Below, one piece after another: positions 56,456 to 59,664 of a stretch of DNA of 64,000 bases. The translations under genes and the position numbers were made by a program. Source of the DNA: Limisalsivibrio acetivorans (GTDB lineage: Bacteria > Chrysiogenota > Deferribacteres > Deferribacterales > Geovibrionaceae); contig NZ_ATWF01000001.1 of the NCBI RefSeq assembly GCF_000421105.1, forward strand, positions 1,026,930 to 1,090,929, written 5' to 3'. Under the pieces are notes generated by a model. The model was given only the letters and a program-made list of their open reading frames with translations. It did not search any database and was not told the DNA's origin. Each line of letters starts with the position of its first letter. Within the stretch, counting starts at the first letter, position 1.

Positions 56456-57007
56456 TCAGTCGTTTTCGCCGAAAACCACAGCCTCGAATCGGAAGAGCTC
56501 GATCGTCTCATTCCTCCATGTGTCGGGTGACAGCCCCGCCTTGACGCATGTCTGGGAGAGGAAGGTTTCTGCATCCCACCCCTGCTCAATAGCAACCTGG
56601 GGGAGCAGAACGCCTCTGCTATGACCCTTTACCACATAAAGGCCGTCACGCCCCACGTGGATATCCTCAACAGAGTTTAAGGGCATCATAGGGCTGAGTA
56701 CAGAGATCTCGAAATCTATGAATGGAAGTGCATCCGCCTCCAAAGAGGGGAAGCGGGGATCGGAGAAGGCAGCCTGATACGCCATCTCCTTTACATTCTG
56801 GTCTATCTTAATATCGTCCCGGAAGTTGCCTATGCATCCCCTGAGACGGCCGTCCCTGTGGAGGGTTACGAAACAGCCGCTGTTGAAGCCCAGCTCTTCG
56901 GGAACCTCCGGATATTCCGGCTTTCTGTCCTCCAGCTCTGCGGAAACAGCCTCTCGGGCTGTTTTTAGAAGTACCTTTCTGCTTTCATCCGAAAGTGTAA
57001 ATTTCAT
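56456..57007 (-). CDS. AMMECR1 domain protein
   Basis: A 183-residue protein of the AMMECR1 family. The invariant LRGCIGNF is at residues 54-61, followed by QAAFSDPRFP and FEISVLSP-type blocks. In many bacteria AMMECR1 is found with a Memo-like and a radical-SAM protein; neither is next to it here. Function is unknown. It begins 11 bases after the pseudokinase-FapA gene, so the two are probably co-transcribed. Confidence 0.92.
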   Translation of the reverse strand: MKFTLSDESRKVLLKTAREAVSAELEDRKPEYPEVPEELGFNSGCFVTLHRDGRLRGCIGNFRDDIKIDQNVKEMAYQAAFSDPRFPSLEADALPFIDFEISVLSPMMPLNSVEDIHVGRDGLYVVKGHSRGVLLPQVAIEQGWDAETFLSQTCVKAGLSPDTWRNETIELFRFEAVVFGEND

Positions 57008-57018
57008 TGAACAGCCTC

Positions 57019-59436
57019 CTATATACCTTTGATAACAACCTTTCCGCCATCGGAGAAGAACTCCATCTTCCCTTCGTACTCCTCCTTTGAAACGAAAACA
57101 CTGTTACCTATTCTAACAGACACATCGCCGTAGAGAAACCTGCGTACTTTTACAGTCTCACGAAAATCATCATCCCGTTCGTCGTAGTCCGCCGTAACAT
57201 TCTCAAGGCGAACCTCTGTTTCGGCTATATACTCCTCAAGGTGCTTCATCTTATCGGTCAACAGCCTGTATTCCCTGTCATCGGCGGCGTTATCCTCGGA
57301 ACCGCACCGTATCACGATCTGCTTCATCTGCCGCTTAACAGATGCCAGAGCCGCCTCCGTCTCTTCATTACGGTGCTGGAGCTCCTCCATTCTCTGCTTA
57401 AGCTCCAATGCAGTCCTTACCAACACGGTTATGGATGTTCTTACGTAGGGATTAGTCCCGGCTATATTCACCTCAACTGAAGTTCCCGCCTGTATGGTCG
57501 AGCCCACAACGCTCCCGTTTCCGGTTTTGCATTTCAGGTGGCGCCCGCATTTCACATCGGAATTTCGTATATAGTTGAATGCGGTGATGTTTCTCCCCGC
57601 CTCGGCGGTTACGTCCTGCAGGAAATCCGCCTTTATATCCCTGAGGGCGTGGATCTCCCCCTTCTCCTTACCAAACACGCCGGACTTCACGAATACAGAG
57701 CCTCTCAAGGACTCCACATATGCTCCTTCCACAACTCCATGGACCTTTATATCCCCCCCGGCGGATACCATGAAATCGGGGAGGACGTTGCCTCGTATGA
57801 TGATATCACCACGGTAGCGGACATTGCCTGTGCTGTAGTCCACATCGCCGTTTATTATTATAAGCTCTTTGATATGGACCTTGCCGTGCTCCATCATAAT
57901 CTGCCCGTCTATGGAGGCGAGAAGCTTAAGGCCATCCTGGGAAACGTAGGTTTTTGCGCCGATGGGGAGCTTTTTGTCACGCCCTTTCTTCGCCTCAATG
58001 GGTGTGTTGAAAACGGTTTTGCCAGGTGCACCTTCTGTGGCTGGTATCTTAAGGCAGAGCACATCACCCGCCGCACTCTCCTGAATGGAGTGGATCTCCT
58101 TGAAATCCACGTCCCCATCCTCAAGAACCTTGGGGCGGAGGAGGTTCTCCTTCTCGAAGAAGTAGTGTATCCATGCGTCCTCGCCGTCCACGGGCTTAAC
58201 ACCTCTGGCAACAGGTATATCCTGCCTGCCTGTATCGAGAACCTGTCTAACGGCCTGCCGGTCTATCCCGAAACGTACACCGTTCTTTTTGAGATGGAAT
58301 ACAGCCTCGTCAACGCTCACGGCAGGGAGTATGGAAAACTTAAGGTACGCTTCCATGGAATCCGCCGTTACCTCGATATCTATATCGCTGAGTGAAACCG
58401 GATCGCATTTCTTAAAGGCCAGCCCCACGGGGTGCGCCTTGCCGTCCGCATGGCGTATACAATCGGCGATGCGCTCCAGGTCGTAGTTGAAGATGTTTTC
58501 CTCGAGGAAGCGTTTCTCTATCTCCTCAATATTTGCCTTGGAGGCCATGATGGGGCTGATGGTCATGTACGCCTCATCATCCCGCATCTCGAACTTATAG
58601 GGGGCTCTGTGACTGACCCTCTGTCTCCCTCCGGAGTCCGCAAGGCGGAAGTCGTCTATCACTTCATCAAAGGATGCGTACCTGTCTTCCGGTGCTATGC
58701 TGAGACACTTTTCAAGGATATGGGAGTATTTGCCCGCCTCGGGGGAGATATAATCGGGCTTAACGAGCTCTCCGCTGAGGATGTTGCGGATAGTCTTCTC
58801 CACCTTTTTCCCCTTGAAGGGTACTGTCCCTGTAAGAATCATATAGGCGCAGCAACCGAACTGAAAGATATCCCCCTTCTTCGCATCGGGCCTTCCACGC
58901 AGTTCTTCGGGTGTTATAAAAAGGGGCGCCTCACTGGAGAAACCGAACTCGCTGAGCAGGGCCTCCTTGACGAAGTATCTGCGCAGATCGAAGAAGTCGA
59001 GCTTAACACGGCCGTCATCGAGGATATAAACGGAATCGGTGTAAAGGTTTCTGTGCTGAATCCCTGCGGAATGGGCATAGGAAAGGATATCGAGCATACT
59101 GCGGACTATCCCCGTTTTCTCCTCCGGTTCGAGATCCTCCACAGCCGAAAGGGAGAGGACGCTGTCAGGGGTATCGATATATTCATGGACGCTGAAGGCA
59201 TCATCGCCGTCGGTGCCGTAATCCAGAACCGAGAGAATCCCCGGATGCCCAAGTCGTCCGGCACTTTTCATGAAGCGGACAAAGCGGGAGTTGAGGTCGC
59301 CGGAGGCTCCGTTTTCGACGATCCGGATTATTGTTTTTCTGTCAAATTTTGAGTCGAAACCTTCGTAAGCTCCACCGCCCGGAGTTCTTGCAATGTAGCC
59401 TCCGAGGAGGTACCTGTCCTTAAGCCTTCTTGCCAT
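57019..59436 (-). CDS. Pseudokinase fused to a FapA (DUF342) domain
   Basis: An 805-residue protein. Residues about 8-265 form a Ser/Thr-kinase-like fold, but the catalytic marks are lost: the beta-3 lysine is R38 (TIIRIV), HRD is HRN (128-130), and DFG is DFF (147-149). The rest (about 290-805) is a FapA/DUF342 region with repeated beta-helix-like strands (DIIIRGNV, GDIKVHGVVEGAYVES), a coiled coil near 690-740 and a C-terminal strand-rich end. FapA-like proteins are linked to envelope or surface functions in Gram-negatives. The kinase part likely acts as a binding or scaffold module. I know of no named family with this fusion. Confidence 0.8.
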   Translation of the reverse strand: MARRLKDRYLLGGYIARTPGGGAYEGFDSKFDRKTIIRIVENGASGDLNSRFVRFMKSAGRLGHPGILSVLDYGTDGDDAFSVHEYIDTPDSVLSLSAVEDLEPEEKTGIVRSMLDILSYAHSAGIQHRNLYTDSVYILDDGRVKLDFFDLRRYFVKEALLSEFGFSSEAPLFITPEELRGRPDAKKGDIFQFGCCAYMILTGTVPFKGKKVEKTIRNILSGELVKPDYISPEAGKYSHILEKCLSIAPEDRYASFDEVIDDFRLADSGGRQRVSHRAPYKFEMRDDEAYMTISPIMASKANIEEIEKRFLEENIFNYDLERIADCIRHADGKAHPVGLAFKKCDPVSLSDIDIEVTADSMEAYLKFSILPAVSVDEAVFHLKKNGVRFGIDRQAVRQVLDTGRQDIPVARGVKPVDGEDAWIHYFFEKENLLRPKVLEDGDVDFKEIHSIQESAAGDVLCLKIPATEGAPGKTVFNTPIEAKKGRDKKLPIGAKTYVSQDGLKLLASIDGQIMMEHGKVHIKELIIINGDVDYSTGNVRYRGDIIIRGNVLPDFMVSAGGDIKVHGVVEGAYVESLRGSVFVKSGVFGKEKGEIHALRDIKADFLQDVTAEAGRNITAFNYIRNSDVKCGRHLKCKTGNGSVVGSTIQAGTSVEVNIAGTNPYVRTSITVLVRTALELKQRMEELQHRNEETEAALASVKRQMKQIVIRCGSEDNAADDREYRLLTDKMKHLEEYIAETEVRLENVTADYDERDDDFRETVKVRRFLYGDVSVRIGNSVFVSKEEYEGKMEFFSDGGKVVIKGI

Positions 59437-59615
59437 AATTATAGATTAATCCATTTTTCTTTTTTATCAGCATAAACTAAAGCTATAATGTATGGCAACA
59501 GGACAATAATAACACGGCGTCTAAAATCGCAATATAACAGGGTTTTCATTTTTGAGCTGAACTTCGGCTTAGAAAAAATCGCATTTTCTTCCAGAACATT
59601 ATGATTTGCCAATGT

Positions 59616-59631
59616 ATATTGTATACAATAT
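59616..59631. promoter_or_regulatory. 16-bp perfect palindrome upstream of the sdh promoter
   Basis: ATATTGTATACAATAT, perfectly self-complementary, ends two bases before the sdh -35 box. The position suits a transcription-factor operator. It does not match the FNR box (TTGAT-N4-ATCAA), and I do not recognise the regulator. Confidence 0.5.
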
Positions 59632-59633
59632 GT

Positions 59634-59664
59634 TTGACATGGAATGGTAATTGTGATAGATAAT
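59634..59664 (+). promoter_or_regulatory. Probable sdhCDAB promoter
   Basis: TTGACA at 59634-59639 and GATAAT at 59659-59664, separated by 19 bases, a slightly long spacer. An alternative -10, TAGATA (59657-59662), gives 17 bases but a weaker match. The mRNA would start about 45 bases before sdhC. Confidence 0.5.

Follow-up and report, generated by a model that had tools for sequence, protein, structure and literature searches.

A gene in the window (the whole stretch of DNA that was analysed, 64,000 nucleotides) encodes an uncharacterised protein of 805 aa in which a Hanks-type kinase-like domain, very probably dead as a protein kinase to judge from its sequence, is followed within one open frame by a complete FapA/DUF342 protein (residues 275–805; Table 1); the product is probably a protein-docking scaffold or regulator. 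An earlier note on this DNA had given the limits of the gene exactly, leaving out the strand, which is the minus strand (ATG at 59436, stop codon at 57019–57021), and had described a dead kinase fused to a full FapA, a description borne out at the level of a whole family by Pfam, by profile comparisons and by ten genomes.

Table 1. Positions of the fusion gene, its domains and diagnostic residues, and of neighbouring genes (window coordinates, unless a locus is named).
Feature	Position	Strand	Basis or remark
Pseudokinase-FapA fusion gene, 805 aa	57019..59436	-	only full-length copy in genome
Hanks-type pseudokinase domain, ~residues 5-268	58633..59424	-	Pfam Pkinase; ten-member profile vs PDB
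Arg38 at beta-3 Lys position	59323..59325	-	ortholog alignment
H128-R129-N130 replacing HRD	59047..59055	-	Asn130 invariant 10/10
D147 then F148-F149-D150 replacing DFG	58987..58998	-	ungapped profile alignment
Linker and extra N-terminal FapA-type module, residues 275-350	58387..58614	-	common to FapA proteins outside phylum
FapA_N domain, residues 352-516	57889..58383	-	Pfam E 4e-41
FapA beta-solenoid domain, residues 526-798	57043..57861	-	Pfam E 3e-56
AMMECR1-family gene	56456..57007	-	11 bp downstream of fusion; neighbour, outside system
MoaE-family genes	L058:9861-10256, L060:11239-11634, L061:10776-11171, L065:7042-7440, L066:7452-7850		

At the sequence level, both halves give domain matches far beyond chance. 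Pfam Pkinase covers residues 23–254 of the window protein (E 2e-16, over the curated cut-off), the matches of the family members ranging from E 2e-16 to 4e-28; NCBIfam PknB_PASTA_kin matches in part (E 2e-30), and a profile of the ten kinase-like halves, compared with the kinases of the PDB, retrieves S. aureus PknB (4eqm) at E 2e-35 over 258 residues and M. tuberculosis PknB at E 2e-28; by sequence comparison, kinase homology spans the whole two-lobed domain. On the FapA side, FapA_N scores 140.9 bits against a cut-off of 27 and the FapA domain 191.3 bits against 31, while the extra module ahead of them is recognised from the matches of the fusion profile to several non-fusion FapAs, which start at about residues 265–290. 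A weak resemblance of the FapA half to superoxide dismutase (E 9e-5) was judged to be noise and is gone with the ten-member profile. A coiled-coil insertion within the beta-solenoid domain (about residues 665–740) is probable, if weakly indicated, from low-scoring coiled-coil families in Pfam and from a helix in a low-confidence AlphaFold2 model; the single-sequence AlphaFold2 prediction is uninformative, with a mean pLDDT of 33.5 for the N-terminal half and 32.6 for the whole protein. No transmembrane-grade hydrophobic stretch is present in any member (maximum Kyte-Doolittle mean over 19 residues, 1.16–1.58), and the envelope location once suggested for the protein is thus unsupported; FapA proteins elsewhere are cytosolic or polar.

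The state of the catalytic residues was surveyed in HMM alignments of ten family members (the window protein and nine orthologues), on which the conclusions rest; the M. tuberculosis PknB row of the residue alignment is a visual guide only. Both HRD and DFG are intact in the canonical kinases that were aligned alongside as controls. The HRD Asp, whose loss had already been noted, is Asn in all ten members, the motif reading HxN throughout; the HRDxK Lys is replaced in all of them by Tyr, Leu or Phe and the catalytic-loop Asn by Ser135, the alpha-C Glu is missing from every member, and the glycine-rich loop is degenerate and mostly lost. The DFG triplet reads FFD, HCG, HFD, NFD, NFN or NFG, with no gap, the register being fixed by the member that reads NFG; it is therefore the metal-binding Asp that is lost in ten out of ten (Phe, His or Asn instead) and not the glycine, as the earlier note had it, the position of the latter being variable (Asp, Gly or Asn). 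That reading probably came from taking D147-F148-F149 as the motif; D147, invariant in the ten members, lies one residue N-terminal of the DFG-equivalent triplet. The claimed loss of the beta-3 Lys holds for the window protein (Arg38) but not family-wide, Lys being found in eight members and Arg in two; because of this retention, nucleotide binding is possible. The domain thus has kinase homology with one or more of the three catalytic residues missing, which is the published definition of a bacterial Ser/Thr pseudokinase (PMC12599244), and the beta-3 Lys, HRD Asp and DFG Asp that an active Hanks-type kinase should combine are not found together.

The same alignments show a fold that has been kept. 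Its landmarks are invariant (APE Glu177, alpha-F Asp189, Gly194 and alpha-I Arg252), the activation segment is of normal length and has no large insertion, and a set of polar pocket residues is identical in the ten members (H128, N130, D134, S135, K145, D147 and R153); altogether 34 residues of the domain are invariant over 30–95% identity, including the lineage-specific HxN...DS and KxD. In two close pairs dN/dS is 0.038 and 0.056 for the kinase-like half, similar to the 0.025–0.058 of the FapA half. Since the landmarks are kept and dN/dS is 0.04–0.06, the kinase-like half is to be regarded as a maintained pseudokinase and not as a decaying one; purifying selection without catalytic residues argues that the domain is maintained for something other than standard catalysis.

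The search for the same fusion that the earlier note had proposed yielded nine further genomes, each with a full-length orthologue of identical architecture, 35–40% identical to the window protein, from three other families of its order (f2, f7 and f8). Full-length matches are restricted to these ten genomes (fusion profile, 385 genomes, two candidates scored per genome), that is to 10 of the 51 genomes of the phylum, with no frame damage in any carrier; among the sampled genomes, the fusion thus appears restricted to one order. The same search, over 385 genomes with two candidates scored per genome, gave no kinase-FapA fusion in other phyla; no kinase was read in the N-terminal parts at 20 regions around long FapA open frames, nor does a kinase gene lie beside the nearest outside-phylum FapAs in 14 loci. 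The order would be Deferribacterales, with which the eight families seen in it agree (PMC13186404), and f7 and f8 would correspond to Deferrivibrionaceae and Deferribacteraceae, respectively.

Within the family of the window genome the fusion occurs in this genome only, the other sampled genera being devoid of it; three sister genomes, from two genera, have sdhC immediately after the AMMECR1 gene, with spacers of 380–440 bp that hold no trace of a remnant of the fusion gene. In the FapA tree, all ten halves group together in one clade (bootstrap/SH-aLRT 100/100), in which the window protein branches first (96/95) and which stands apart from the other FapA lineages of the phylum, its nearest kin being outside it. 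These sequence relationships fit one old fusion, preceding the separation of the families of the order and followed by losses; transfer between lineages is a possible alternative. A recent horizontal gain is unsupported, as the GC content (0.52–0.53) and GC3 (0.62) of the fusion gene match those of the neighbouring genes.

The gene neighbourhood differs from one carrier family to another, and no neighbour is conserved across them. In the window, the AMMECR1 gene, 11 bp away, is probably co-transcribed with the fusion; argD-argF-argG come after it and the sdh genes lie on the other side of the fusion, and in other genera of the family the AMMECR1-argD or AMMECR1-sdhC adjacency is kept without the fusion. 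The fusion gene is divergent from flgB-flgC-fliE-fliF-fliG in f7 and lies beside type II secretion or glycosyltransferase genes in f8. A MoaE-family gene (Pfam E 1e-16; Table 1) immediately follows the fusion gene in f7 and f8; it was considered as a conserved operon partner and rejected, since it occurs in fusion-free genomes and is unlinked in f2. Its product does not have at the C-terminus the PIWKxE-type sequence in which molybdopterin synthase is expected to end. As for non-coding signals, Rfam gives no match around the gene; 3 terminator-like sites were counted where chance predicts 3.7, and 10 promoter-like sites where it predicts 4.0, a modest excess, and neither count is taken as evidence here. 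At 59590–59640 of the window, upstream of sdhCDAB, the palindrome ATTGTATACAAT stands beside a TTGACA-like hexamer; the spacers between AMMECR1 and sdhC in sister genera (L119, L121 and L122) have kept it, and it is likely an operator for an sdh regulator.

No further Hanks-type kinase exceeds the Pkinase cut-off in the window genome, of which the fusion is the sole Hanks-type domain, or in the nine other carriers, and this makes it unlikely that the pseudokinase activates a partner Hanks kinase. The FapA complement is more varied. The window genome (2.97 Mb) has three other FapA proteins of about 480–515 aa, one of which adjoins fliR-flhB-flhA-flhF-flhG (names by sequence reading); a GAF-type histidine kinase gene (L055:9642-10781) overlaps the start of this flagellar-locus fapA, and its product may be a sensor for the canonical FapA operon. 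In four f2 genomes, all with FliG, neither of the two Pfam domains reveals a FapA besides the fusion. Two f3 genomes that have no FliG carry only a short divergent FapA beta-solenoid protein (G013:C3:138234-138998 and G020:C1:431074-431838), a 270-aa frame lacking FapA_N, which might be related to bactofilin or MinC or else be a FapA retained once flagella had been lost.

Whether the output is flagellar or polar is an even matter, the link to flagella being indirect and evidence being available on both sides. FapA genes have been described in the company of flagellar genes (PMC11607428), and the V. vulnificus protein is polar, is needed for flagella and is controlled by a signalling protein, dephospho-EIIAGlc, that binds it directly (PMC6877527); one of the f2 genomes having the fusion as only FapA (G012) matches Calditerrivibrio nitroreducens, which bears a single polar flagellum (PMC3072091); some of the FapA relatives outside the phylum adjoin genes for sigma-28 (FliA/WhiG; G196) or sigma-54 (G067), and a sigma-54-dependent two-component pair is also found beside one, to which the flagellar operon next to the fusion in f7 is to be added. 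Against a flagellar role, the window gene has no flagellar neighbours and shares its genome with three other FapAs, the neighbourhood varies between families, its FapA half does not derive from the flagellar-locus lineage of the phylum, and many flagellated relatives, including the other sampled genera of its own family, are without the fusion.

The explanation that we propose is that the fusion protein is a cytosolic, non-catalytic scaffold, whose pseudokinase head would transfer no phosphate and would instead offer a surface for docking or sensing, the partner being something other than another Hanks kinase; the head would thereby control where or whether the FapA half, a beta-solenoid with a probable coiled coil, assembles, the output, by analogy with V. 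vulnificus FapA, being most likely the control of flagellar or polar assembly. The scaffold role, suggested before together with a putative gating by a ligand, is the most likely reading and fits the conservation of the domain without its catalytic residues; the entire chain, from a dead-kinase head regulating a FapA effector to flagellar or polar organisation, is a sequence-based proposal advanced tentatively, its chance being slightly under even. A bolder form, which we deem unlikely, would have a new pseudokinase family (HxN...DS, KxD[FHN]) bind a nucleotide or metabolite without catalysis and so switch the oligomerisation or polar placement of the fused FapA; flagellar assembly would then be under a metabolic checkpoint made of a single protein, in hosts otherwise without Hanks kinases.

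Other readings of the same facts differ from this scaffold in the part that they change. The output may be non-flagellar, the protein being a cytosolic scaffold of a divergent FapA lineage that organises some other polar, cell-division or metabolic assembly; the separateness of this lineage from the flagellar-locus FapA of the phylum, the AMMECR1 and arginine genes near the window copy (the former only 11 bp away) and the type II secretion or glycosyltransferase genes adjoining it in f8 point that way, but flagellated f2 genomes have no FapA besides the fusion, a flagellar operon adjoins it in f7 and sigma-28 or sigma-54 genes are close to some of the relatives outside the phylum; this reading is held to be somewhat unlikely. 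The head, on the other hand, may be an atypical enzyme, either an unusual phosphotransferase or a transferase of the AMPylating (SelO) or glutamylating (SidJ) kind, which would use the invariant D147, N130 and D134-S135 together with the usually retained beta-3 Lys. Pseudokinases such as SelO and SidJ offer precedents (PMC12599244), and the polar residues of the pocket, invariant in ten members, with Lys in eight of them, would suit such a chemistry; with the HRD Asp, DFG Asp, HRDxK Lys, catalytic-loop Asn and alpha-C Glu missing in all, Phe, His or Asn at the DFG Asp position and a degenerate glycine-rich loop, it is nonetheless quite improbable.

At the opposite extreme, the kinase half might be a functionless decaying remnant carried by a working FapA, as the loss of all the catalytic motifs, the beta-3 Lys already turned into Arg in two members and the absence of the gene from the syntenic site in sister genera could suggest; a dN/dS equal to that of the FapA half, the 34 invariant residues and a frame intact in ten genomes contradict this idea, which is extremely improbable. 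The fusion is of interest in that a pseudokinase has remained attached here to a partner whose phenotype (flagella, polarity) lends itself to experiment, in hosts that can be cultivated and have no other Hanks kinase, and since in a species with a single polar flagellum it is fused to the sole FapA, the role of the pseudokinase and the regulation of FapA are testable in one gene.

Bacterial pseudokinases are largely uncharacterised; seven families have been described, in addition to EssB/YukC, SidJ and SelO, in a survey that makes no mention of FapA or DUF342 (PMC12599244). The earlier remark that no described system has this architecture agrees with the literature searched, in which none was found, although UniProt or InterPro may list it undiscussed; the architecture is new, both kinds of module being already known. 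With ActPs2 the family shares the Asn in place of the HRD Asp (ten out of ten); the beta-3 Arg of ActPs2 is present in the window protein and one orthologue, the other eight members having Lys. It differs in a DFG that is substituted and not deleted, and in the absence of both the insertions of about 32 and 250 aa, there being no large activation-loop insertion in the fusion, and the C-terminal transmembrane region of ActPs2 (PMC12599244), which is moreover actinobacterial, unlike the fusion with its FapA partner. The pseudokinase domain of MviN (ActPs3) and EssB/YukC likewise have all or nearly all catalytic motifs degraded and are docking or scaffold domains of larger assemblies, but these are membrane proteins (of peptidoglycan synthesis and type VII secretion, respectively) with shortened activation loops, whereas the fusion is cytosolic, has FapA as its partner and still contains the APE Glu. 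PknB-type Hanks kinases, its closest solved homologues by profile, differ in that the fusion has neither the catalytic residues nor a PASTA or transmembrane part.

Compared with FapA/DUF342 proteins such as V. vulnificus FapA and B. burgdorferi BB0267, the fusion has the same complete FapA_N and FapA, a core of about 500 aa and a probable coiled-coil insert, and its carriers possess the flagellar gene fliG; it is set apart by the pseudokinase head of about 270 residues, by its separate FapA lineage and by its location, in the window genome, outside any flagellar locus. Other extended FapAs also carry an extra domain ahead of the core, among them a protein of another phylum (L052:1821-3779) in which the added domain is Jag_N and not a kinase fold; Jag_N-FapA and kinase-FapA together indicate that FapA cores accept several different N-terminal heads.
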